A stretch of DNA of 64,000 nt from NCBI GenBank assembly GCA_019358975.1, contig JAHHIL010000001.1, positions 248,001-312,000 on the forward strand. The letters are read 5' to 3'. Shown one piece after another: positions 2,873 to 16,735 of this stretch. Every line of letters starts with the position of its first letter. The stretch's first letter is position 1. This stretch comes from Trichocoleus desertorum ATA4-8-CV12. Its GTDB lineage: Bacteria; Cyanobacteriota; Cyanobacteriia; FACHB-46. Below the pieces are notes generated by a model. It was given only the letters and a program-made list of their open reading frames with translations, was not told the origin of the DNA and did not search any database. Position numbers and translations under genes: made by a program.

Positions 2873-3952
2873 ATGAACTCAGACGAACTGCCAACGCCAG
2901 AACCTACCTTTGAAGTCAAGCTATCTTCGCAGCCATTGAATTTTGGGGACGCGATCGCCGAGACAGCAACCAATGGCACCGCAGACCCAGCCGAAAGAGT
3001 GGCTGAGTTGGAGCGTCGAGAGCAAGCGTTGCAGCAAGAGATTCAAGTGCTGCAAGCCACTTTGCAGCAGCAACAAGACCAACTGGCAGAAACCCAAGCC
3101 ACGATGGGGCGGTTGGTACAAGAAGGGCTACGGGAGTTGGAGCAGCGCAAGCAAACGCTACAAATTGCCGTGGAGCAGCTAGAGCGCCGTCAAGAGCGGG
3201 TGCGGACTGAAATGCGGACTACGTTTGCGGGCGTTTCGCAGGACTTAGCAATCCGCGTTCAAGGTTTTAAGGACTACTTAGTGGGTAGTCTGCAAGATTT
3301 AGTCAATGCGGCGGAAGAACTGCCACTGGTACCCGAAGCAGAGGAAGCAGTGACACCTGTAGCAGTGACGGAAGCCAGACCCGCAGAGCGCCAAGCTGCC
3401 TCTAATCCACAGTTTGCCGAGCAATCTTTTCAAGACCAAACCAAGCAAATTCGTAGCTTGCTCGATCGCTATCGCAATTCACCCGACTACTATGGCGCGC
3501 CTTGGCAGTTGCGGCGCACCTTTGAGCCTGTCCATGCGGAGCGCGTGTCCAACTGGTTCTTTACCCAAGGGGGACGGGGGGCGCTACGGACAATGGGGAG
3601 CCGCCTGCAAAATATTTTGGTTTCTGCTGCTATTGTTTCGATTTTGCGGCGGCTGTATGGCAATCGCTTACGCACTCTCATCTTGGCTAATACCCCAGAA
3701 CGATTGGGTGAGTGGCGACGCGGTTTGCAAGACTGCTTAGGCATCTCTCGCGCCGACTTTGGCCCAGAGCAAGGGATTGTGCTGTTTGAAGCGCCAGAGC
3801 CGTTGATTCAAAAAGCCGATCGCTTGGTGCAAGAAAATCAACTGCCGCTGATCATTGTGGATGACACAGAAGACCAAATTAGCCTGTCTTTATTGCAGTT
3901 TTCGCTGTGGCTGGCTTTTGCACCAGATCCTCAGATGCCAAGATTTTTCTAG
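2873..3952 (+). CDS. DUF3086 domain protein with N-terminal coiled coil
   Basis: The protein has about 359 residues. Its N-terminal part (roughly residues 40-125) is a heptad-rich coiled coil with many Gln/Glu/Leu residues (AELERREQALQQEIQVLQ). The C-terminal half is the cyanobacterial DUF3086 domain: QTKQIRSLLDRYRNSPDYYG, WQLRRTFEPVH, WFFTQGGRGALRTMGSR, then LRTLILANTPERLGEWRRGL. The reading frame is open back to an ATG at 2822, but those first 17 codons lie partly in a dispersed repeat, so the ATG at 2873 (MNSDELPTPEP) is preferred. Function is unknown. Pairing with DUF3119 is seen here and is typical of cyanobacteria. Confidence 0.8.
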   Translation: MNSDELPTPEPTFEVKLSSQPLNFGDAIAETATNGTADPAERVAELERREQALQQEIQVLQATLQQQQDQLAETQATMGRLVQEGLRELEQRKQTLQIAVEQLERRQERVRTEMRTTFAGVSQDLAIRVQGFKDYLVGSLQDLVNAAEELPLVPEAEEAVTPVAVTEARPAERQAASNPQFAEQSFQDQTKQIRSLLDRYRNSPDYYGAPWQLRRTFEPVHAERVSNWFFTQGGRGALRTMGSRLQNILVSAAIVSILRRLYGNRLRTLILANTPERLGEWRRGLQDCLGISRADFGPEQGIVLFEAPEPLIQKADRLVQENQLPLIIVDDTEDQISLSLLQFSLWLAFAPDPQMPRFF

Positions 3953-3958
3953 AGATGA

Positions 3959-3980
3959 CCTAACCCCCAGTCCCCTTCTC
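3959..3980 (+). repeat. Dispersed 3'-end repeat, copy 1
   Basis: A 22-base motif, cctaacccccagtccccttc plus two bases, begins seven bases after the DUF3086 stop codon. A close match lies in opposite orientation at 6971-6991, directly after the crtO stop. Such C-rich repeats are common between cyanobacterial genes; function is unknown. Confidence 0.5.
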
Positions 3981-4097
3981 TTCTAGGGAAGGAGGAGAAA
4001 GCTACAAGTGCTTCTCTGTGTCGGGTAGAAGTTTAGCAAGGGGGAAAATGGTGCAGTTGATTGGTTTGTAGTCTTAACTGGGTGAGGGGAAATAGGC

Positions 4098-4796
4098 ATG
4101 GCGCTATGGCTAGCGGGGAACGCAATTCTGTTGTTGGTGGCTTATTTTTTGGGGTCAATTCCACCTGGGTATTTGGCGGGTCGGTTACTCAAAGGCATTG
4201 ATATCCGGGAGCATGGTTCTGGCTCTACAGGGGCCACCAATGTCTTACGCACGTTGGGTAAAGGGCCAGCGATCGCAGTTTTGCTGATTGACATCTTGAA
4301 AGGAGTCTCAGCAATTGTCCTGGTGCGTTGGTGCTACTCCTTGGCGATCGCTCAAGACTTAGCAACGGGGGCAGGAGCACTCGCAAGTGGCGCAGCATTG
4401 GATTGGATGGTAACACTAGCGGGATTAGCAGCTTTGCTGGGGCATAGCAAATCTATTTGGCTAAACTTCACAGGTGGCAAGTCGGTAGCAACAGGTTTGG
4501 GGGTATTACTGGCGCTCTCCTGGCAAGTGGGTCTGTCTACTTTGGCTGTATTTGGGGTGGTGATGGCAGTATCGCGGATTGTCTCGCTCAGCTCCATTAC
4601 AGCGGCGATCGCGGTATTTGTATTCATGTTGCTGCTCGGCCAACCGTTGCCCTACCAGTTATTTGCGATCGCAGGTGGCTTATATGTAGTGTTGCGGCAC
4701 CGCACCAATATCCAGCGGCTATTGGCAGGTACTGAACCTAGAATTGGGCAAAAGCTGTCTCAAGAGCCTGAGCAAGGTTTGGAGAGTAATCCCTAG
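4098..4796 (+). CDS. plsY: Glycerol-3-phosphate acyltransferase PlsY
   Basis: This is the integral-membrane acyl-phosphate:glycerol-3-phosphate acyltransferase that makes lysophosphatidate, the first step of phospholipid and glycolipid synthesis. At 232 residues it matches the PlsY size. The conserved loops are present: GSIPPGYLAGRLLKGIDIRE, then GSGSTGATNVLRTLGKGPA near residues 40-58, a mid-protein LLGHSKSIWLNFTGGKSVATG, and a late VVLRHRTNIQRLLAGTE, with hydrophobic segments in between. A purine-rich GGGGAAAT precedes the ATG. Its stop codon overlaps that of the convergent gene at 4793 within a shared CTAG. Confidence 0.95.
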   Translation: MALWLAGNAILLLVAYFLGSIPPGYLAGRLLKGIDIREHGSGSTGATNVLRTLGKGPAIAVLLIDILKGVSAIVLVRWCYSLAIAQDLATGAGALASGAALDWMVTLAGLAALLGHSKSIWLNFTGGKSVATGLGVLLALSWQVGLSTLAVFGVVMAVSRIVSLSSITAAIAVFVFMLLLGQPLPYQLFAIAGGLYVVLRHRTNIQRLLAGTEPRIGQKLSQEPEQGLESNP

Positions 4797-5089
4797 TTGT
4801 TGTAGCGGCCCCATCTAAGTAAGGTGGTCACGATATAGAGCACGATCGCGGAGCCAATAACGGCGGGGATAATAGGTACGCCTTCAATTCGCCACTCTAA
4901 AAAACCGAAGCTGAGGTTGTATTGCCGCTTCAATAGGTTGGTGGTCCATTCGCCAAGCCACACCCCTGCCAACCCAACAATCAGCAAACCAAAAATCTTG
5001 CCAGGGATTTGGCGCGGAATCAGCATGTTGCCCGCTCCCGCACAAACCATCGCAATCATTAGCTGCACAAATAGGTGAGAGATATCCAT
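4793..5089 (-). CDS. Small membrane protein, GlsB/YeaQ/YmgE-like
   Basis: This 98-residue protein has three hydrophobic helices and glycine-rich turns (AGAGNMLIP, GKIFGLLIVGLAGVWLGEW, VIGSAIVLYIVTTLLRW). The pattern resembles the transglycosylase-associated/GlsB-YeaQ-YmgE group of small stress-linked membrane proteins. The match is by pattern only and the middle part (FGFLEWRIEGVPIIPA) is unlike the short enteric members, so the family call is tentative. It converges on plsY, sharing four bases at the stop codons. Confidence 0.6.
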   Translation of the reverse strand: MDISHLFVQLMIAMVCAGAGNMLIPRQIPGKIFGLLIVGLAGVWLGEWTTNLLKRQYNLSFGFLEWRIEGVPIIPAVIGSAIVLYIVTTLLRWGRYNN

Positions 5090-5173
5090 CCAAACCTCTC
5101 GGTCATTTTTCGTGAAAGATTTGCTTCTAAACTACCACTCGTGCTTCTGAAACTAGCAAAAGCCACCAAAATG

Positions 5174-5201
5174 CAAAAGAGGCACCTTTAGCAGGCACCT
5201 C
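5174..5201 (-). terminator. Rho-independent terminator for the exported protein at 5235-5603
   Basis: On the minus strand GAGGTGCC and GGTGCCTC flank a seven-base loop (eight pairs including two G-U), followed at once by TTTT. It begins 34 bp after the stop codon of the minus-strand gene. Confidence 0.6.
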
Positions 5202-5234
5202 CTAGCAGTTAAATTTCTTGTATATCAGCAGTTA

Positions 5235-5603
5235 CTACTTCCCTGCTGCTTTCCCAGCTAAGTTACGGGTGCGATCGATTTTCTTTTCAAAGCCGCTCGT
5301 TTGTGGAACCGCTTCTTGATCCGCCTTGATCTCTCTCGTATAGGGATCTTTCATTTTGGTGGGGTCTTCACCCTGTTGTCGTCGCTGCTGATACTCTTCT
5401 TCGCGGATACCCGTGCCCACTCGGATGCTATAGGCACGGTCTATCTTCTCTTCGGGGCTTAGAGAATTGCTGGTCTGAGCAGAAGCGTAGCTAGGTTGCT
5501 GTGAAAATGTAAATAAACCAGACAAACTAATTAATGTAATCAATCCTAGAACAAGTGCTTGTTGTAGTAGGGTTTTGCCTAACTTTAAGAAAATTCGCTG
5601 CAT
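5235..5603 (-). CDS. Small exported protein, function unknown
   Basis: This 122-residue protein has a clear N-terminal signal sequence: a basic start (MQRIFLKLGK), a hydrophobic core of about 18 residues and a likely cleavage after SYASA near residue 41. The mature part is short, charged and Gln/Glu/Lys-rich (EEEYQQRRQQGEDPTKMKDP, GFEKKIDRTRNLAGKAAGK), and looks disordered or helical. Export to the periplasm or thylakoid lumen is inferred. No named family is recognised. It is followed by its own terminator-like hairpin, so it is probably monocistronic. Confidence 0.7.
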   Translation of the reverse strand: MQRIFLKLGKTLLQQALVLGLITLISLSGLFTFSQQPSYASAQTSNSLSPEEKIDRAYSIRVGTGIREEEYQQRRQQGEDPTKMKDPYTREIKADQEAVPQTSGFEKKIDRTRNLAGKAAGK

Positions 5604-5723
5604 TAAAATTCCCTCACTATCTATTAATTCAAACTGAAAGGAATCCTACAAGCCTGCGATCGCGCTGCCTTCTGTCAGAGGGAACATTCTGGCTCCAGCC
5701 ATCCTTTTCACCCTCCTACAGCG

Positions 5724-6839
5724 CTACTTGATCGGCTCCCAAGTTTGCTCAATTTTCAGCCCTCGGCTTGCCATAACCTGCTCAAATAAGTCAGTTGGCA
5801 GGGCTTGTTCTACAGGCCAAACTCCTGGTTTTTTTAGTTTGCCCGCTAACATTAACTCTGCGAGAGTGCCTGTGCCGTAGCCCGCTGCGATCGCTGTATT
5901 TTCATGCACCAAGGTAGAGCAACAACGCACCGCTTCGCCTGCTTTCTGCCCACTCACCTCAGAGCGAATCGCGACTCCAATGCCACTAAAGCGATCGGTC
6001 ACGTCGGTCATGCCATGACTAACTTGAGATAAAAACTCAATCACCCCAGCGTTACGGAGCCAACTAGAAGGCCACCAATGAGCCACGCTCCAAGTTAGAT
6101 AGTTATAAAAATCTGGGACTGTGCCGAACTTGGTCACTACGGTTTTGATTTCAGGAAAGGTATCAGGCAGCGTAAAAGCTTCGGGCATATCAAACCAGTA
6201 GACTCCGGTGCGACCATAGGGGGCGGGAAACTGAATGGCTTCGCGATCGCTATAAGGCTTGATCTGCTGCCATTGGTTGTCCTTCCAGACATCAAAGGGG
6301 CGACGCAACCCTAGAAATGTGGTTCGCATCACCGTAATTCCAGCCCCACCAGAGCCACCGACCACATAGCTCAAGTGAATCCGCTCCGGTTGATCTAGTT
6401 GCTCCACATCCCGGCGAACCATGCTATTCGAGATGCCCGGAAAAATTCCTGTATTGACGATCGCGGTTACGCCTGCGGCTGTAGCTTCCGCTTTGTATTC
6501 CACAGCTTGACAGGTAAAAGAGCGGTGATCACTCACATCCAAGTAATCCACGCCCAAGTCGATACAGGTTTTGAGCACACTGGCATCCCGGTAGGGAAAC
6601 GGCCCCGCACAGTGAATCACCAACTGGGATTGGCTAATCGCTTCTCGGAGTTTATCCGATTCCGCTAAGTCGAGAGCCAAGAACTGTACCTGAGAACTTA
6701 AGCGATCGCTTACGGCTTGTCCAGCGATCGCGTCACGGCCTGTAATCGTCACCTGCGCTTGGGTGTGAGCCACGATATCCGCTGCTACATTGCTGCCGAT
6801 GCGCCCACTGCCACCTAAGATTAAAATTTGCTCCGTCAT
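5724..6839 (-). CDS. Saccharopine dehydrogenase-like NAD(P)-binding oxidoreductase
   Basis: The 371-residue protein opens with a Rossmann dinucleotide-binding loop (ILILGGSGRIGSN) immediately after the ATG at 6839, which is why this start is preferred over a codon 14 residues further upstream. The region around residues 75-140 (QLVIHCAGPFPYRDASVLKTC, VDYLDVSDHR) and the IVNTGIFPGISNSMVRRDVE segment are typical of saccharopine-dehydrogenase-like or trans-acting enoyl-reductase-like proteins. Such proteins reduce or isomerise diverse substrates, so the reaction cannot be named. It lies 154 bp downstream of crtO on the same strand and could share its transcript; a role in lipid or carotenoid modification is only inference. 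Confidence 0.8.
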   Translation of the reverse strand: MTEQILILGGSGRIGSNVAADIVAHTQAQVTITGRDAIAGQAVSDRLSSQVQFLALDLAESDKLREAISQSQLVIHCAGPFPYRDASVLKTCIDLGVDYLDVSDHRSFTCQAVEYKAEATAAGVTAIVNTGIFPGISNSMVRRDVEQLDQPERIHLSYVVGGSGGAGITVMRTTFLGLRRPFDVWKDNQWQQIKPYSDREAIQFPAPYGRTGVYWFDMPEAFTLPDTFPEIKTVVTKFGTVPDFYNYLTWSVAHWWPSSWLRNAGVIEFLSQVSHGMTDVTDRFSGIGVAIRSEVSGQKAGEAVRCCSTLVHENTAIAAGYGTGTLAELMLAGKLKKPGVWPVEQALPTDLFEQVMASRGLKIEQTWEPIK

Positions 6840-6970
6840 CAACCCAACACAAATTAACTCAGCAGAGGTACGCAACCCCATCCTTATAGTTCACCAGCTA
6901 CGAGGAGTTTCTACCTCAGTAGAGAGAACGACCTTTTTCTCCTCTTAAAGACTGAATTTCGTTTTCTATA

Positions 6971-6991
6971 GGGAAGGGGTTGGGGGTTAGG
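6971..6991 (-). repeat. Dispersed 3'-end repeat, copy 2
   Basis: Read on the minus strand this is cctaacccccaaccccttcc plus one base, closely matching the copy at 3959-3980. It sits immediately behind the crtO stop codon, as the other copy sits behind DUF3086. Confidence 0.5.
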
Positions 6992-6993
6992 CC

Positions 6994-8688
6994 TTAAGAC
7001 ATCCGAAACACTGATTTCGCAACTGATTTAAGAGAATTGCCTGCATCCGAGATAGTTGAGGCAAACGGCTGTTGAGCATGGATGAAGACGCGGGCACAGT
7101 TACGCCCAGGCATCCCAGAAATAGATCCACCCGGATGCGTCCCTGCTCCAGTCAGGAACAGCCCATCAATCGGTGTTTTGTAGTTCGCGAGTTCTGGAAG
7201 CGGGCGGAAGAACACCATTTGATCCAGGGTCATGTCGATGTGGTAGTAGTTGCCCTTGTAAGAGCCTAAGCGCTCTCCCAGTTCAGCAGGGCTTTCTACC
7301 CGACGGGCAATGACAGAGTGTTTCAGGTTGGGAGAGTAGTCTGCCAGTTTTTCTACACAGCGATCGGCCACTTTATTTTTTAGCTCATCCGTCCACCCCG
7401 TACCGCGTAGCCCAGTGCCTTCTGCACCATGAATTTGGTAAGGGGCAAAGAACTCGATCCAGACGGTGTGTTTGCCTTCAGGAGCTAATGAGGGGTCAAG
7501 CATCGAGGGCATGACCACATACATCGATGGGTCAGAATCGGGGATATTGCCTACACTCGCTTCACTGTGAGCCATTTCTACATGCCTAACAGAATCAGCA
7601 ATCAAAATTGAGCCGATCGAGTATTCATCCTGATGGTTATAGCGCTCAAACCGTAATGGCTCCGAGAGCGCGAGGTCAATCTTGAGGATTGTTTCGTTGT
7701 TGTTGACAATCCGCCGCTCCAGACGTTCTCGTAATTCTGGATCAGCACTATCCACATCGGAGTGATCCATACATTGTAGAAACAGCCGCTTTGCATCAAT
7801 GTTAGAAATCACGCCCTTGGTCGCTCTATATTCGGTACCCCCTGCAACTCGAACGCCCACTGCTTTCCCGCCATCGATCAGGACTTTTTCTACATGCTGG
7901 TCAGTTAGGATTTTGCCGCCCAAGCTAGTCACAAGATTCAACAAAGCTTTGACTAACGCCCCAGTACCCCCTCTAGGCCGAGCCATACCGGGGTTGTGGC
8001 GCATTGCCATCATGATCGCGCCTACCGCATTAGTCTTCTGAGAAACCGGAGTACCCAACTCGGCAGCTAATCGAGCCAGAGGAGCCTTCAAAAACTCAGA
8101 ATCGAACCATTCGTTGAGAATGTCTTCCGCGCTGGTGAGCATCGTGCGGATAAAGTCCAGTGTTTTGTTGGTAGAGCCAATGACAGAAAAGAGGTCTTTC
8201 ATCTTTTTGATGTCGTAGTTGCCCACGATATCAATGATGGATTTAGGCGGCGCATTGAAAATTGGCACCATTGAGCCAATCACCCGCTGCCAAAAATCTG
8301 TGTACTCTGCGTACTTCTGGGCATCCCGTTCACTGTAGCGAGCAATTTCTGCACAAGTCTTTTCGACCGAGCGATGGCCTAAAAAGTACTTGCCGTCAGG
8401 ATGGGGACAGAAGACAACGGGGTCGCAATAGAGGTACTCCAAGCCATATTTTTCTAGTTCCAGTTCCTCGACAACTGGGCCTAAATGGATAAATTCATGG
8501 TCGATCGCGCAGAGATTGAACTGAAAACCAGGGGCTTCGTTGGGTATCGCTTCCTCCGTTGTTGCCGCCCCACCAGGCACCGAACGCTTTTCCAACAGGA
8601 GAACGCTATAGCCAGCTTTGAGTAAGTAAGCGGCACAGACCAAACCGTTGTGGCCTGCACCAATAATGACAACGTCGTATGTTTCCAT
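6994..8688 (-). CDS. crtO: Beta-carotene ketolase CrtO
   Basis: This 564-residue flavoprotein belongs to the phytoene-desaturase superfamily. It has the FAD-binding GAGHNGLVCAAYLL loop at residues 11-24, an EKRSVPGGAATTEE segment, and the C-terminal GAGTHPGGSISGMPGRNCA signature. Blocks such as CAIDHEFIHLGPV, NEWFDSEFLKAPLARL, ARPRGGTGALVKAL and VESPAELGERLGSYKGN match, as far as I recall it, the cyanobacterial CrtO enzyme, which adds 4-keto groups to beta-carotene to give echinenone and canthaxanthin. Length fits (about 540-565). A paralogous desaturase-like function remains possible. The enzyme would act at membranes; echinenone is also the pigment of orange carotenoid protein, which is not encoded in this window. 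Confidence 0.82.
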   Translation of the reverse strand: METYDVVIIGAGHNGLVCAAYLLKAGYSVLLLEKRSVPGGAATTEEAIPNEAPGFQFNLCAIDHEFIHLGPVVEELELEKYGLEYLYCDPVVFCPHPDGKYFLGHRSVEKTCAEIARYSERDAQKYAEYTDFWQRVIGSMVPIFNAPPKSIIDIVGNYDIKKMKDLFSVIGSTNKTLDFIRTMLTSAEDILNEWFDSEFLKAPLARLAAELGTPVSQKTNAVGAIMMAMRHNPGMARPRGGTGALVKALLNLVTSLGGKILTDQHVEKVLIDGGKAVGVRVAGGTEYRATKGVISNIDAKRLFLQCMDHSDVDSADPELRERLERRIVNNNETILKIDLALSEPLRFERYNHQDEYSIGSILIADSVRHVEMAHSEASVGNIPDSDPSMYVVMPSMLDPSLAPEGKHTVWIEFFAPYQIHGAEGTGLRGTGWTDELKNKVADRCVEKLADYSPNLKHSVIARRVESPAELGERLGSYKGNYYHIDMTLDQMVFFRPLPELANYKTPIDGLFLTGAGTHPGGSISGMPGRNCARVFIHAQQPFASTISDAGNSLKSVAKSVFRMS

Positions 8689-9450: not shown

Positions 9451-10494
9451 ATGGTAACAACGCTTGATGATACAAAGCGGATGATGATTGGTACCAAGCT
9501 AGCTGATATTAAAGCTATTCAAGAGTTGCTCATCGCTAATGAGCAAAGATTCATCAGCGAAATCAACGACCAAGATATTCGCCATCGTTTCCAAGAAATG
9601 CTCAAGGATGACCAGAAGAACATGGGCGTTCTGGAAACCGTGATTGTGCAATACGGTATCAAAGCTGAGCCCAAGCAAACCATTCGTGGTTTTGTAGACA
9701 AGCTACAGCAGTTGATGGGTGGCTCTGAGCTGAGCATTTTTGAGAAAGTGTTCCAGCATGAACTACTGAAGCACCAACAAGTCATGAGCGGCTTAATTGT
9801 TCATAAAGCGGCTCAAAAAGTAGGAGCTGACGTTGAACTCGCAATCGGGCCTCTTAACACCATCAATTTTGAAAGTCGGGCTCACCAAGAACAACTCAAG
9901 GGTGTGCTAGAAGTGTTGGGTGTGCGTGAACTCACCGGACAAGAAGCCGATCAAGGTCTGTGGGCGCGAGTACAAGACGCAGTTGCAGCCCTCTCTGGTG
10001 TAGCGGGCAGCGTGATGACCCAATCCTCTGACAAATCCGACATGAATGTCCAGGATGTCATCCGTTTGGATCACAACAAGACCAACACCCTGTTTACCGA
10101 AATCTTGGGTTCTAACGATCCTCAAAAGATCCAAGAGTACTTCGGTCAGCTCTACAAAGACTTGAGCGTTCATGCTGAAGCAGAAGAGCGCGTGGTTTAT
10201 CCGGCTGTCCGTCCCTTCTACGGTCAAAATGACACCCAGGAACTGTACGACGAGCAAGCTGAGATGAAGCGCATGCTTGATCAAATCAAGGCGCTCAGCC
10301 CTGCTTCTTCTGAGTTCAAGGACAAAGTGCGTCAACTGATGGAAGCGGTGGGTGACCACATCCGTCAAGAAGAGAGCACCATGTTTGCGGCCATTCGCAA
10401 TAACCTCAGCAGTGATCAGTCTGAGCAATTGGCGACCCAATTTAAGTCTGCGAAGAGCCAATTGCAAGACCAAATGTCTGCTTCTATGAAGTAG
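9451..10494 (+). CDS. Two-domain hemerythrin-like protein with a substituted iron ligand
   Basis: This 347-residue all-helical protein has two parts. Residues 1-190 form a ferritin-like/DUF892-like bundle rich in His and Glu (HELLKHQQ at about 103-110). Residues 200-345 form a hemerythrin HHE domain that would bind a diiron centre. Visible ligands are His208, His241 with Glu245 (HAEAEE), and His303 with Glu307. The position occupied by His80 in the neighbouring paralog (ESEHDE) is Gln here (YDEQAE), so one histidine ligand is missing. The ATG is fixed by AGGAGAG seven bases upstream. Hemerythrin proteins sense or carry O2, NO or iron; which applies is unknown. A UUCG hairpin follows the gene. 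Confidence 0.85.
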   Translation: MVTTLDDTKRMMIGTKLADIKAIQELLIANEQRFISEINDQDIRHRFQEMLKDDQKNMGVLETVIVQYGIKAEPKQTIRGFVDKLQQLMGGSELSIFEKVFQHELLKHQQVMSGLIVHKAAQKVGADVELAIGPLNTINFESRAHQEQLKGVLEVLGVRELTGQEADQGLWARVQDAVAALSGVAGSVMTQSSDKSDMNVQDVIRLDHNKTNTLFTEILGSNDPQKIQEYFGQLYKDLSVHAEAEERVVYPAVRPFYGQNDTQELYDEQAEMKRMLDQIKALSPASSEFKDKVRQLMEAVGDHIRQEESTMFAAIRNNLSSDQSEQLATQFKSAKSQLQDQMSASMK

Positions 10495-10547
10495 TCATTG
10501 GTTGCATTTGAAATATCACCTGTATAGCAAACCTCAATAACCTCACG

Positions 10548-10576
10548 TTCCCACTACTTCGGTGGTGGGAATTTTC
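10548..10576 (+). terminator. UUCG-capped intrinsic terminator or attenuator between hemerythrin genes
   Basis: TTCCCACTAC-TTCG-GTGGTGGGAA forms a ten-pair stem (one U-G) closed by a stable UUCG tetraloop and followed by TTTTCTC. It lies 54 bp after the first hemerythrin stop and 37 bp before the next ATG, so it could set the ratio of the two proteins. Confidence 0.8.
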
Positions 10577-10612
10577 TCAATTTTGCAAGTCGCAACACTC
10601 AAGGAGTTGCAA

Positions 10613-11092
10613 ATGATGGCCAAGGGCAAGAACCAAGACATTTTGGAATTGATCGCAACGGATCACCGCGAAGTTGAGCAGCTCTTTTCTAAAATCGAGA
10701 GCGCAGCTAATTTAGGGCAGTTGTACCAGTTCTTTAACCAACTCTATAAAGAATTCAATCTACATTCTCGGGCTGAGGAACTCGTCTTCTATCCGGGTCT
10801 AAGAGAATATGAAGATACGGACGAAATGATTCAGGAAGCGGAATCGGAGCACGACGAGGCGGTTGCACTCTTAGAAGAAATTAAAGCCCTCAGTCCTGAC
10901 TTGCCTGAATTTAAGGCAAAAATTGCAGAATTGAAGGAAGCGGTTCTGCATCATGTGCAGGAAGAAGAGTCTGAACTCTTTGAGGCGGCGCGAGACTGCA
11001 TGGATGACCAGCAGCTCAAGCAACTCGGTCAAGAATTTCAGCAAGCTAAAACTAAATTAGAAGACGAGGTTGTGGAAGCGGCATCCCTCTAA
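10613..11092 (+). CDS. Hemerythrin HHE-domain protein
   Basis: This 159-residue single-domain hemerythrin-like protein keeps the full ligand set: His18 (ATDHRE), His51 with Glu55 (HSRAEE), His80 (ESEHDE) and His113/114 with Glu118 (LHHVQEEE). The start is the ATG at 10613, preceded by AAGGAG at 10601. An upstream in-frame GTG at 10562 lies inside the terminator hairpin and is rejected. It is clearly a paralog of the C-terminal domain of the preceding gene, sharing EIKALSP and an EEES motif near the end. The probable role is binding O2, NO or iron in the cytoplasm. It may be partly co-transcribed through the hairpin. Confidence 0.9.
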   Translation: MMAKGKNQDILELIATDHREVEQLFSKIESAANLGQLYQFFNQLYKEFNLHSRAEELVFYPGLREYEDTDEMIQEAESEHDEAVALLEEIKALSPDLPEFKAKIAELKEAVLHHVQEEESELFEAARDCMDDQQLKQLGQEFQQAKTKLEDEVVEAASL

Positions 11093-12818: not shown

Positions 12819-13808
12819 ATGTCTGTACAAGTACAAACCCAGCGATTGGGCCGCTTTATGGACCCTTGGCCTTACTTGACCTTAGCTACAGCGGTGGTGA
12901 TGTTGCTGGGGTTAATGAATGCTGGTTTTGTCGGCAAGACGTTGCTCGCCACTAGCCTGAATGTAGACCCAGAAGAAGCGGCAGAACTCCAACCCATTCA
13001 GGTTGAAAAAACACCGATTGGAGCTTTGCGAATCGAGACCCAAGCGACGATTCCAGACAACCATTGGGTTACTTACGAAATCCAACTGCGCGATCGCCAA
13101 GGTAACTTACTGGCGAGCGGTATTAAGCAAGCCTGGAATGAGTCCGGCACCTGGAGTGAGGAGGGTGAATCAGGCACTTGGCAAGAATCGGATTTAGCAG
13201 GTGGTTTGGATGTGCGCCCTAACCAATCCGAACCCATGACGATCGCTATTCAAGTCTTGGACTATACCAGCACCTCTGGGCAAGAAATTGATCAGCCCGT
13301 GAACTTTAGCATCACGGTGCAGAATGGGGTGGTGGATGGCCGCTATCTCTGGGCTGGATTCCTTGGCACCGCTAGTTTAGCCCTGTTGTCGTTATTTGCT
13401 GTTCCGATCACAGGCGCTCAGGTCATCGACAAGACCATTCCGGATAGCGATGTGGGCGATCGGGCGGTGATGGGTGGGAGCGATCGCTTAGTGCGGGTCA
13501 CAGTGGACATTACCTCTGATGAAACTTCTCCAAAAGCATTGCAAGTCGAGTTGTTTGTCAAAGACCAGAGTGGTGAGCAGATCTATACCAATTCGTTTCC
13601 AGTCAAGCTCAGCTTGTCCAAAGAAAACGGCAAAGTAGATGAAGGTACTGGCACCCTCACCGTGTTTTTTGTTTTAGAGCCGCGCAGTTCCTATGGCTTT
13701 TACGCTGAAGTGGTTCCCGACGGCCCCATCGATAAAACCACATTAGTGGTAAGGGATGGAGCCAAAACCTTGGGCTGGCCTAAAGTGATTCACCTGAAGA
13801 CGACTTGA
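12819..13808 (+). CDS. Two-TM beta-rich membrane protein, first gene of the polyamine-type cluster
   Basis: This 329-residue protein is not assigned to a family. A transmembrane helix lies at about residues 18-44 (PYLTLATAVVMLLGLMNAGF) and another at about 178-200 (YLWAGFLGTASLALLSLFAV). The roughly 130 residues between them are beta-rich (ALRIETQATIPDNHWVTYEI, DRQGNLLASGIKQAW) and would sit on one face of the membrane, probably outside. The last 110 residues form another beta-rich region (RLVRVTVDITSDE). The gene is followed 44 bp later by a small membrane peptide gene and then by the spermidine-synthase-like, DUF4178 and AdoMetDC-like genes, all co-directional. A structural or sensing role for that cluster is inferred. 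Confidence 0.7.
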   Translation: MSVQVQTQRLGRFMDPWPYLTLATAVVMLLGLMNAGFVGKTLLATSLNVDPEEAAELQPIQVEKTPIGALRIETQATIPDNHWVTYEIQLRDRQGNLLASGIKQAWNESGTWSEEGESGTWQESDLAGGLDVRPNQSEPMTIAIQVLDYTSTSGQEIDQPVNFSITVQNGVVDGRYLWAGFLGTASLALLSLFAVPITGAQVIDKTIPDSDVGDRAVMGGSDRLVRVTVDITSDETSPKALQVELFVKDQSGEQIYTNSFPVKLSLSKENGKVDEGTGTLTVFFVLEPRSSYGFYAEVVPDGPIDKTTLVVRDGAKTLGWPKVIHLKTT

Positions 13809-13852
13809 CGTAGTTCCGGTAGATATTTTTTGCAAGTTAGAGATTGTATATT

Positions 13853-14080
13853 ATGACTCCTGCATTTGCGATCGCGGCTGTCCTGGTTACAGGTATTACG
13901 CTCACCGCTGGGTACACCCAAAGTTCCTCGCTGCACCTCCGGGAAGAACGGCAACCGATGTATTGGCCCCGATACGGCACCAGCTTATCGGGTCGCTACC
14001 ATAACCGCACTTGGATTCCTGGCCCCGAACGCACTAGCTATGGTGAGTTTCGTGGGGGTGGACCCGGAGCAGGCAAATAA
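13853..14080 (+). CDS. Small membrane or exported peptide ending in GGGPGAGK
   Basis: This 75-residue protein begins with a single hydrophobic helix (MTPAFAIAAVLVTGITLTAG) that may be a signal sequence or anchor. A Tyr/Arg/Trp/Pro-rich tail follows (YWPRYGTSLSGRYHNRTW), ending in FRGGGPGAGK. The ATG at 13853 is preferred over an upstream TTG. The stop codon is one base before the ATG of the spermidine-synthase-like gene, so the two are very likely translated in tandem. Its aromatic/basic tail with a Gly-rich lysine end could be a membrane-surface ligand or a modification target. The family is not recognised. Confidence 0.65.
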   Translation: MTPAFAIAAVLVTGITLTAGYTQSSSLHLREERQPMYWPRYGTSLSGRYHNRTWIPGPERTSYGEFRGGGPGAGK

Positions 14081-14081
14081 A

Positions 14082-15698
14082 ATGGCATCTCTAGGGCAAG
14101 CGACCATGCAGGCTGGGGAGCCAGAACTCAGTCTAAGTCGGCGGCAGCGGCATTTGTTGTTAGCGGCGACGGCGATTTCTTCCAGTTGCGGATTAGCGAT
14201 TGAACTGCTGCTGGGCACTTTGGCGAGCTACTTAGTCGGCAATCAAGCGCTCGCTTATGGGGTGGCAGTGGGTGGCTTTTTAGCCGCAATGGGAGTTGGG
14301 TCTTATTTGAGCCGATTCATTGCAGTTCCTGAATCAGGCAAGGAGCTAGTCGGTGTTGAGTCAGAGAGCGATCGCCTGCGACAGGAGCAGCAGCAACTCC
14401 TAAATGCTTTTGCTCAGATTGAACTCGCGATCGCTCCGCTGAGTGCGCTGTTGCCATTAGGACTATTCATTTTATTTGTGGTCAATGGGCCTGTCTGGAT
14501 TGGTTTGTTTCTAGTGACGTTGCTGTTGGGCACCCTGGCAGGCTTGGAAGTACCGCTGCTGACTCGGGTGCTGGAGCAAGAGGCAGGAGTACGAGATGCT
14601 CTCTCTGGGGTTTTAGCGCTGGATTACTTGGGCGCACTGGTAGGCTCGTTGGCGCTGCCTGTGGTTTTGTTACCTACAGTAGGGATGTTTCCTGCGGCGG
14701 CGTTGATTGGGGCGTTACCTGCTCTCATGGTGTTTGCCCTCGGTCGAACTTTTCCCCAACTACGACGTTGGCGACGCTGGGGGCTAGTGGTTTGTTTTGG
14801 CCTCTTTGCCTTGGCTCCGCTGACGGTACCATTGGGCGATCGCTTGGAAAACACGCTCTACAATGCTCCGGTGATTAGCCGCATCCAGTCACCCTATCAG
14901 CGGATTGTGCTGACTCGCCAAGCGGGAGATGTGCGCCTGTTTCTGGATGGAGATTTGCAGTTCTCCACTCTAGATGAGTACCGCTACCACGAAGCCCTGG
15001 TACATCCCGCCATGAGTGCCAGTCGCGATCGCCGTCGGGTATTACTCATGGGCGCAGGCGATGGTTTGGCGTTGCGGGAAGTGCTGAAATGGCCAGAGGT
15101 AGAGCGGGTGTTGTTAATTGACCTAGATGCAGCAGTGATTAATTTGGCGCGACGACATCCTTTTCTCGTGCAAGCCAATGCTCACGCTTTGGATGATCCG
15201 CGTGTAGAGGTCAGACAGGCGGACGCTTTCTTAACTGTACCGACGCTGCCCGAAACCTTTGATGTGATTATTGCAGACTTTCCAGACCCCGACCGAGACA
15301 CACTCGCCAAACTCTATGCTCAAGGCTTTTATCAACGTCTGTTACCACGCTTAGCGCCTGCTGGAGTATTGGTGACGCAGGCATCGAGTCCATTTTTTGC
15401 CCCGCGAGCTTTTGCTTGTGTTGCCGCGACGCTGGAGTCGGTTGGTTTATCGGTGCATCCTTACGTCACGGATGTACCGAGTTTTGGGCCTTGGGGCTTT
15501 GTTTTGGCAATGCGTGCCCCCTTGCAAGCTGCAACTCTAAGGTTACCTGTTGCCACCAAGTTTTTGACGGAGCCACTGTTGCAACAACTATTCCAACTGC
15601 CTAAAGATGTGCAACTTGGCAATGTAGAAATCAATCGCTTAGCGAACCCAGTGCTGGTGAAGTATCAAGCTGATCCACGTTGGGCCGCTTATCACTAA
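14082..15698 (+). CDS. Membrane-embedded spermidine synthase-like aminopropyltransferase
   Basis: The 538-residue protein has an N-terminal set of about six to seven hydrophobic helices (residues 20-250) and a C-terminal Rossmann domain of the spermidine/spermine synthase type. Recognisable sites are DGDLQFSTLDEYRYHEALVH, the SAM-binding GAGDG at residues 324-328, IDLDAAV for the ribose contact, and ADFPDPD at 398-404 in place of the soluble enzyme's SDxxDP, so the catalytic Asp is kept. Known soluble enzymes transfer aminopropyl from decarboxylated AdoMet to putrescine or spermidine. The start at 14082 is preferred because the upstream extension overlaps the small peptide gene in another frame. 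Substrate unknown; product may be made at the membrane. Confidence 0.85.
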   Translation: MASLGQATMQAGEPELSLSRRQRHLLLAATAISSSCGLAIELLLGTLASYLVGNQALAYGVAVGGFLAAMGVGSYLSRFIAVPESGKELVGVESESDRLRQEQQQLLNAFAQIELAIAPLSALLPLGLFILFVVNGPVWIGLFLVTLLLGTLAGLEVPLLTRVLEQEAGVRDALSGVLALDYLGALVGSLALPVVLLPTVGMFPAAALIGALPALMVFALGRTFPQLRRWRRWGLVVCFGLFALAPLTVPLGDRLENTLYNAPVISRIQSPYQRIVLTRQAGDVRLFLDGDLQFSTLDEYRYHEALVHPAMSASRDRRRVLLMGAGDGLALREVLKWPEVERVLLIDLDAAVINLARRHPFLVQANAHALDDPRVEVRQADAFLTVPTLPETFDVIIADFPDPDRDTLAKLYAQGFYQRLLPRLAPAGVLVTQASSPFFAPRAFACVAATLESVGLSVHPYVTDVPSFGPWGFVLAMRAPLQAATLRLPVATKFLTEPLLQQLFQLPKDVQLGNVEINRLANPVLVKYQADPRWAAYH

Positions 15699-15714
15699 GG
15701 AAGAGAGGTGGGGG

Positions 15715-16308
15715 ATGATCACATTAGTTTGGCTTGGCGTTATCGCAGTGGTGGTAGTTGGTGTCGTTTTGGTCGTGCGCCAGTCGCAGGGGCGTTTACC
15801 CAACCAGGGCGATCGCGCTCAACTCCCCTCCCTGGCTCGTACCATCTTCACCTTAGAGGTGGGAGATATTGTGCAATACATGAGCACAGATTGGGTCGTA
15901 GAGGGCAAGCTTACCTACGACAGCAACGGCTACACCTGGTTAGAGTACTTGTTGCAAGATGGCGATCGCCTCCGCTGGCTTTCCGTGGAAGAAGATGATC
16001 AGGTAGAAGTGAATTTCTTGGAGCCAACGCAAGGGTTAGATATTCCTAGCACTCCTCCCACTCATCTGACGTTTGGCGGTGTCGCTTATCGGCAAGTGGA
16101 AGCGGGCACAGCCCGGATGACTCGGGTGGGCACTACCCTGAACCGCCAAGCTGAACAATGCCGTTACTTTGACTACGCTGCCTCTGATCACCAAGTGCTC
16201 TCAGTTGAAGATTGGGAAGGAGAGCTGGAAATCACGGTGGGCAATCGGATTCACCCTACGGCTCTCACTCTGCTACCTGGAGATGGCCGCCGAGTTTATG
16301 GTGTCTAG
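15715..16308 (+). CDS. DUF4178 domain protein
   Basis: This 197-residue protein has one N-terminal transmembrane helix (residues 3-22) followed by a DUF4178 domain. That domain is beta-rich with TLEVGDIVQYMSTDWVVEG, GYTWLEYLLQDGDRLRWLSV and a closing VEDWEGELEITVGNRI. DUF4178 has no proven biochemical role, but it recurs beside AdoMetDC-like and spermidine-synthase-like genes in many bacteria, as here. It begins 16 bp after the synthase-like gene and is followed 34 bp later by the AdoMetDC-like gene, so it is most likely in one operon. It probably faces the cytoplasm. Confidence 0.85.
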   Translation: MITLVWLGVIAVVVVGVVLVVRQSQGRLPNQGDRAQLPSLARTIFTLEVGDIVQYMSTDWVVEGKLTYDSNGYTWLEYLLQDGDRLRWLSVEEDDQVEVNFLEPTQGLDIPSTPPTHLTFGGVAYRQVEAGTARMTRVGTTLNRQAEQCRYFDYAASDHQVLSVEDWEGELEITVGNRIHPTALTLLPGDGRRVYGV

Positions 16309-16342
16309 TCTCTTTTAGGTTTCTCTGATTTTTCCGATTTTT

Positions 16343-16735
16343 ATGGATGATTGGCGATCGCTCATGACCCCCTCCACACTTAGCTCTCACCATCTCTCTG
16401 CAATTCTTCCGGCTGCCGCTGCTGTGTACCAATGGACAGAAGCTGATTTTCTCAGTTTGCTGCAAAGTGTCGTTGGGCAAGTAGGGTTGACGATAGTGGG
16501 AGAGCTGGCATTTACCTTTCAGCCCCACGGTGTTTCTGCGATCGCCCTGTTAGCGGAATCCCACGTAGCTCTACATTTCTGGCCAGAGAAAGCCAAGATC
16601 ACGGTTGACATTCACGTCTGCGATTTTGAGCAAGGCAACCAGATCAAAGCTGAACAGTTAGCGCAACTGCTGAGCTTGCAAATTACAGGGGAGAGTGGTG
16701 TAGAGCATTGGCACTGTTTATCAATCACAAGTTAA
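16343..16735 (+). CDS. S-adenosylmethionine decarboxylase-like proenzyme (SpeD family)
   Basis: This 130-residue protein fits the short bacterial AdoMet decarboxylase type. These proenzymes cleave themselves before a serine to form a pyruvoyl group and then supply decarboxylated AdoMet for aminopropyl transfer. The cleavage motif LLAESH is present with Ser73. The processing His78 (HFWPE) and the catalytic Cys93 (VDIHVCDF) are in the expected places, so activity is plausible. The N-terminal 20 residues are unusual, and a second ATG at 16364 is an alternative start. It closes the co-directional cluster with the membrane aminopropyltransferase-like gene; a joint pathway is inferred. Confidence 0.85.
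   Translation: MDDWRSLMTPSTLSSHHLSAILPAAAAVYQWTEADFLSLLQSVVGQVGLTIVGELAFTFQPHGVSAIALLAESHVALHFWPEKAKITVDIHVCDFEQGNQIKAEQLAQLLSLQITGESGVEHWHCLSITS

Follow-up and report, generated by a model that had tools for sequence, protein, structure and literature searches.

A cluster of five co-directional genes lies at positions 12819–16735, on the + strand, of a 64,000-nucleotide stretch of the genome of the cyanobacterium Trichocoleus desertorum ATA4-8-CV12 (the window; its host genome is G000 in the genome comparisons, and L-numbers denote compared loci). The open reading frames (ORFs) g1, g2, speE, DUF4178 and speD are separated by gaps of 44, 1, 16 and 34 base pairs, each where a first-pass annotation of this DNA had placed it. 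The gene g1 (12819..13808, +) encodes a 329-amino-acid (aa) protein with two transmembrane (TM) segments; g2 (13853..14080, +) a small membrane-anchored peptide of 75 aa; speE (14082..15698, +) a 538-aa membrane protein in which a seven-TM (7TM) domain precedes an aminopropyltransferase domain; the fourth gene (15715..16308, +) a 197-aa DUF4178 protein with an N-terminal TM segment (PF13785, 141 bits against a gathering cut-off of 25 in a Pfam search); and speD (16343..16735, +) a 130-aa probable class 1b S-adenosylmethionine (SAM, or AdoMet) decarboxylase. The cluster is real and of a published but unsolved kind. We describe a lysine at the exact C-terminus of a membrane-anchored tail, here that of g2, which accompanies 7TM-SpeE at every surveyed locus where DUF4178 is also present and is a candidate aminopropyl acceptor.

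The g2 peptide ends in GGGPGAGK (codons 14054..14077, +; final Lys codon AAA at 14075–14077), and its C-terminal block is the best conserved part of the cyanobacterial g2 sequences. A P-loop was considered for this motif and rejected, given that the motif closes a peptide of 75 aa and that only its final Lys is constant across groups. We surveyed tails in 80 named membrane-SpeE loci from many phyla, which were compared with the window and with nine earlier loci. Membrane SpeE often had DUF4178 (74 loci), DUF350 (50), SpeD (29) and band-7 (15) as neighbours, and near speE there was almost always a small single-TM ORF with Lys as its exact last residue, in most cases preceded by Gly or His, and with sequences unrelated between groups. 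A tail ending exactly in Lys was present in 70/70 loci, from many phyla, that pair 7TM-SpeE with DUF4178; these tails are membrane-anchored and mostly Gly/Ser-rich, and are either peptides in their own right or extensions of the DUF4178 protein. An automatic rule recovered 62 of them and inspection the other eight, in which the tail closes a longer reading frame containing DUF4178-type sequence (L109, L123, L126, L130, L131 and L136), lies downstream (L111) or appears under an alternative start (L093). Clostridia carry the tail on the DUF4178 protein itself, at its C-terminus and one TM segment past the DUF4178 domain, so tail and DUF4178 should face opposite sides of the membrane. The Calothrix locus L065 has a second peptide (49 aa, ending FQGGGPSRGK) at −2183 to −2028 relative to speE.

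The opposite strand served as a control. Small-TM ORFs ending in Lys made up 51/115 on the gene strand versus 7/71 on the opposite strand (Fisher p = 3e-7), and a hydrophobic ORF ending in [GHA]K preceded speE in 65/83 loci versus 8/83 on the opposite strand; the surveyed loci are related, so p values overstate their independence, with 57 distinct sequences of the last 12 residues, two of which (L078 and L129) are probably chance. The final Lys is encoded by AAA or AAG, the preceding Gly by all four of its codons, and all three stop codons occur, which places the conservation at the protein level. The pattern also held in loci that had not been used to find it: in 6/6 DUF4178-bearing plasmid loci (Novosphingobium, Alteromonas, Ensifer, Burkholderia, Gemmatirosa and Tritonibacter) the tail ends in Lys. 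Tails from these plasmids include a 48-aa peptide ending ..GPSHK, the endings ..GGGPESGK, ..YGSHK and ..RFRHGK, a 510-aa lipoprotein ending RGPSSGK (Alteromonas) and ..NRVK, with Lys after Val (Tritonibacter).

The SpeE protein matches Spermine_synth in Pfam (112.5 bits) and NF002956 in NCBIfam (544.1 bits against a cut-off of 472). Its AlphaFold2 (AF2) model (predicted local distance difference test score, pLDDT, 92.6) has seven helices within residues 20–257 (14139..14852, +) followed by a catalytic domain (residues 258–538; 14853..15695, +) with the fold of spermidine synthase (Z 36.1 to 1uir over 275 residues), the catalytic domain filling all matches of the structure search. In or beside the 7TM helices, E41, E156, R162 and D181 are invariant in 58 membrane SpeE sequences; that such charged residues would fit the passage of a cation is speculation. 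The catalytic Asp pair and the donor-site residues are likewise invariant in the 58 and are shared with the soluble SpeEs of the same cyanobacteria. The DFPDP motif (residues 399–403; 15276–15290), which had been read correctly, belongs to a set of class-specific differences: D-x-S-D-P is changed to D-x-P-D-P (P401 in 58/58 membrane SpeEs versus Ser in 7/7 soluble ones), PTY to PSF (F468 in 58/58 versus Tyr in 7/7), and T278 stands where soluble SpeEs have Glu or Asp. Judged by sequence comparison, the first two of these active-site changes would fit an altered acceptor. In a positive-inside count, Lys and Arg totalled 10.9 over the N-terminus plus loops 2-3, 4-5 and 6-7 versus 0.6 over the remaining loops; this predicts an N-terminus that faces inwards and a catalytic domain that shares the outer side with the tail.

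The SpeD protein matches AdoMet_dc (PF02675, 62.4 bits against a cut-off of 25), and Ser73 (pyruvoyl-forming; codon 16559–16561), His78 and Cys93, the three residues singled out by the first-pass annotation, stand at those positions and align with those of solved AdoMet decarboxylases. It falls below the cut-off of the equivalog TIGR03330 (59.9 versus 75.65 bits) and is therefore a divergent member to which the equivalog name does not apply. Its identity is 55% to the SpeD of L076, 48–53% to SpeDs of other DUF4178 loci and 30–44%, over partial length, to canonical SpeDs of relatives. G000 has one SpeE and one SpeD, both in the cluster, together with a deoxyhypusine-synthase-like gene, which is a possible alternative polyamine route, the deoxyhypusine synthase homologue SpeY making homospermidine (PMC10407285). 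Decarboxylated SAM in G000 is thus left without another visible user. Each of seven relatives carries a separate soluble SpeE (~320 aa) besides the membrane SpeE, and six of the seven have a canonical SpeD elsewhere (none was found in G159). Because of these separate soluble enzymes, and because experiments are stated to have shown that bacterial fusions of a membrane protein to an aminopropyltransferase play no part in making spermidine or spermine (summary of Li et al. 2019, Biochem J 476:2579, in PMC12803844, 2025), the cluster probably does not serve ordinary polyamine synthesis. The earlier suggestion of a special system holds to this extent, and the idea is already published in large part (PMC11237479; Li et al. 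2019).

Neither g1 nor g2 matches a family in Pfam or NCBIfam, as had been supposed. They are not orphans, however. The g2 type of lysine tail is found at every locus that combines 7TM-SpeE with DUF4178, and a profile search found distant g1 relatives in other phyla, upstream of the lysine-tail gene (L099, L038, L048, L079, L101 and L112). The AF2 model of g1 (pLDDT 90.5) comprises a TM segment (residues 17–37), a jelly roll predicted to lie outside (40–171), a second TM segment (175–197) and a second beta domain (200–328). An alignment of 16 homologues revealed a conserved Trp-rich motif within the jelly roll, KQAWNESGTWSEEGESGTWQESD (residues 103–125; 13125..13193, +), in which K103, W106, G110, G119, W121, E123 and D125 are invariant. 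The jelly roll is GOLD/P-domain-like (Z up to 11.7; Foldseek and VIA-align). Assignment of g1 to a known enzyme was rejected, the two structure searches yielding a generic jelly roll only, with the second beta domain barely covered.

Among 292 genomes of the phylum, the DUF4178 gene occurs in 28 and g1 homologues in seven, all within those 28. The order g1, g2, speE, DUF4178 is kept across diverse cyanobacteria, in five genomes (G027, G207, G002, G066 and G174); G288 shares this layout, its g1 and g2 being strongly diverged. This confinement of g1 to DUF4178 genomes and the retained order show that the cluster is not a product of chance. The comparison bears out four of the five genes as a unit; the five-gene unit was rejected, since close relatives usually have speD elsewhere. 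Among them, speD adjoins the cluster only in the window and in L076, a Leptolyngbyaceae metagenome-assembled genome with the order g2, speE, DUF4178, speD. L036 (in G066; 3416–7830) holds a decaying copy in which g1 is split and speE is broken by a 390-aa ORF resembling a TnpB-type transposon protein. A glutathione-transferase-like gene (~400 aa) follows speE in some cyanobacteria (one cluster of four loci), and in L062 (1835–3052 relative to the match) such a gene lies between speE and DUF4178. Phage records gave only soluble-type SpeE matches. A second cyanobacterial type of cluster (L046, L047, L049 and L051) contains a divergent DUF4178, SpeD and a DUF350-like 290-aa membrane protein, with a FemX-like gene in between in L046 and L047; the SpeE of these four loci lacks the N-terminal 7TM domain and carries, towards its C-terminus, a Gly/Ser-rich stretch and then a TM segment.

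The cluster is flanked downstream by a large PAS/histidine-kinase-like ORF and upstream by a Crp/Fnr-like gene. The latter had been linked to the cluster, but it was rejected as part of the system because no homologue of it was found adjoining the compared clusters. Further upstream in the window (9451–11092) lie two adjoining genes that by appearance are putatively of the hemerythrin/HHE type.

From these data we infer a reaction, its acceptor, its sidedness and a role in the envelope. SpeD would decarboxylate SAM, and membrane SpeE would move the aminopropyl group onto the tail's C-terminal lysine, in the window that of g2, at the epsilon-amine. The product would be an N-(3-aminopropyl)lysine end, in effect a short polyamine attached to a protein at the surface of the membrane. 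DUF4178, on the cytoplasmic side, and g1, with its jelly roll outside and a beta domain inside, would be parts for assembly, recognition or sensing. We consider the chances evenly balanced that the SpeD/membrane SpeE system aminopropylates the C-terminal lysine of g2-type tails and that the cluster is the cyanobacterial form of a widespread system. The broader proposal is more tentative and falls somewhat short of an even chance: that 7TM-SpeE, SpeD and DUF4178 aminopropylate lysine tails across many phyla, possibly on the outside of the membrane and with the 7TM domain letting decarboxylated SAM through, a modification that would be new in the literature searched.

Several observations weigh against this proposal. 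The tail tracks DUF4178 more than SpeE: 10/13 loci without DUF4178 have no tail. A lysine-tail peptide was also not seen in the DUF4178/SpeE clusters L046, L047, L049 and L051. Charge gives a mixed picture of how the small peptides are oriented (25 N-in, 15 ties and 9 opposite). In addition, the predicted topology places the catalytic domain of SpeE and the tail outside the cell, where decarboxylated SAM is not expected; to our knowledge, decarboxylated SAM outside a cell is without precedent. The ten loci with membrane SpeE, no DUF4178 neighbour detected and no lysine tail are L082, L091, L096, L100, L113, L121, L124, L128, L132 and L139; their SpeE may have lost its partners or may use a different acceptor.

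Among other explanations, SpeE might aminopropylate a lipid or a small molecule, the lysine tail being a recognition or sensing element such as a substrate mimic blocking the putrescine pocket. The enzyme does sit in the membrane, the lysine side chain resembles putrescine and could be an autoinhibitory mimic, and many loci contain PspA, band-7 and DUF350 genes, an indication of envelope stress (PMC11237479). However, we saw no lipid enzyme in the cluster, and a mimic would have no obvious need to sit precisely at the C-terminus in all groups when the remainder of the peptide varies; we regard this explanation as unlikely. The first-pass annotation had envisaged a membrane-linked or a peptide-linked aminopropyl product; the peptide-linked one fits the universal C-terminal Lys, and we found no evidence for a membrane-linked (lipid) one.

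Less likely again is that the tail is anchored to peptidoglycan and tethers the membrane to the wall, SpeE acting elsewhere. The model for this is Braun lipoprotein (Lpp), a small membrane-anchored protein whose C-terminal lysine is joined to peptidoglycan by L,D-transpeptidases. The g2 peptide resembles Lpp in its C-terminal lysine and membrane anchor, and an exact C-terminal lysine on a flexible Gly/Ser linker, predicted to be extracytoplasmic, would suit such a tether. G000 encodes six YkuD L,D-transpeptidase domains, but YkuD is common (6/14 control genomes, 8/8 searched), so its presence is weak evidence, and we saw no gene for a transpeptidase within the cluster. Moreover, the tail is genetically tied to DUF4178 and SpeE, to which Lpp is not linked, and g2 has no lipobox cysteine (indeed no cysteine at all), although some tail proteins elsewhere have one. 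An ordinary membrane-bound synthase that converts putrescine to spermidine or to a different free polyamine, with the small peptide as an accessory subunit, is the least probable explanation: the sole SpeE lies with the sole SpeD in G000, its catalytic residues are intact and its NCBIfam family is named polyamine aminopropyltransferase, but relatives own a second, soluble SpeE and mostly a canonical SpeD elsewhere, the deoxyhypusine-synthase-like gene offers a possible other route, membrane-fused homologues in bacteria are reported in the PMC12803844 summary to take no part in spermidine or spermine synthesis, and the C-terminal lysine is left unexplained.

The proposed aminopropylation of the tail can be set beside several known systems. 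Bacteria and fungi both have membrane-fused aminopropyltransferases, whose aminopropyl acceptor is described as an open question (PMC12803844, drawing on Li et al. 2019). The membrane-fused SpeE with AdoMet decarboxylase of Li et al. 2019, as described in PMC12803844, has the same N-terminal membrane domain on a SpeE-like domain; the summary given there names no acceptor and mentions no lysine tail. An operon of PspA and CesT with 7TM-SpeE, DUF350, DUF4178 and a 'Ctha_1186' lipoprotein has also been described (Ravi et al. 2024, PMC11237479). This group-2 PspA/SpeE operon and the window cluster have in common that DUF4178 lies beside 7TM-SpeE; in contrast to that operon, the window cluster has neither PspA nor CesT/Tir adjoining, and G000 has no PF03994 (DUF350) match at an E value of 0.001. 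In some groups, the 'Ctha_1186' lipoprotein may be the counterpart of the tail peptide or of g1-type proteins; the phrase C-terminal lysine is absent from the main text of PMC11237479. A literature search, with supplements and subscription papers outside its scope, found no prior description of a C-terminal lysine in the 7TM-SpeE/DUF4178 context, so that as far as the literature could be searched the tail is new. It makes the acceptor question specific and cheaply testable, and a 2018 review had suggested that the existence of protein modifications that use aminopropyl groups may be worth investigating (PMC6302742).

Aminopropyl units on lysine are known from diatoms, in which the lysines of silaffin-3 bear them (PMC3820600). 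Silaffins differ from the bacterial tail in that they are eukaryotic, the lysines are internal and the units are iterated and N-methylated, with the enzymes not settled. A close parallel to the pair of SpeE and lysine tail, by analogy, would be that of YjfC and YjfM in Escherichia coli. The yjfM product (L158, 10388–11026) has a Gly/Ser-rich tail ending GHWGG, and its gene adjoins yjfC, annotated as a peptide-spermidine ligase; the YjfM tail could be the substrate of YjfC. The yjfIJKLMC operon, as papers citing Pederick et al. 2023 present it, thus resembles the window cluster in placing a Gly/Ser-tailed protein beside an enzyme that attaches polyamine to peptides, and it has a DUF350 neighbour. 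YjfC differs in being an ATP-grasp-type ligase (PMC11237479) rather than an aminopropyltransferase, and the E. coli operon is without DUF4178 or SpeE. If aminopropylation of the tail is correct, protein-bound polyamines of the envelope would be common in bacteria and would arise by two independent chemistries, spermidine ligation by YjfC and aminopropylation by the system described here.

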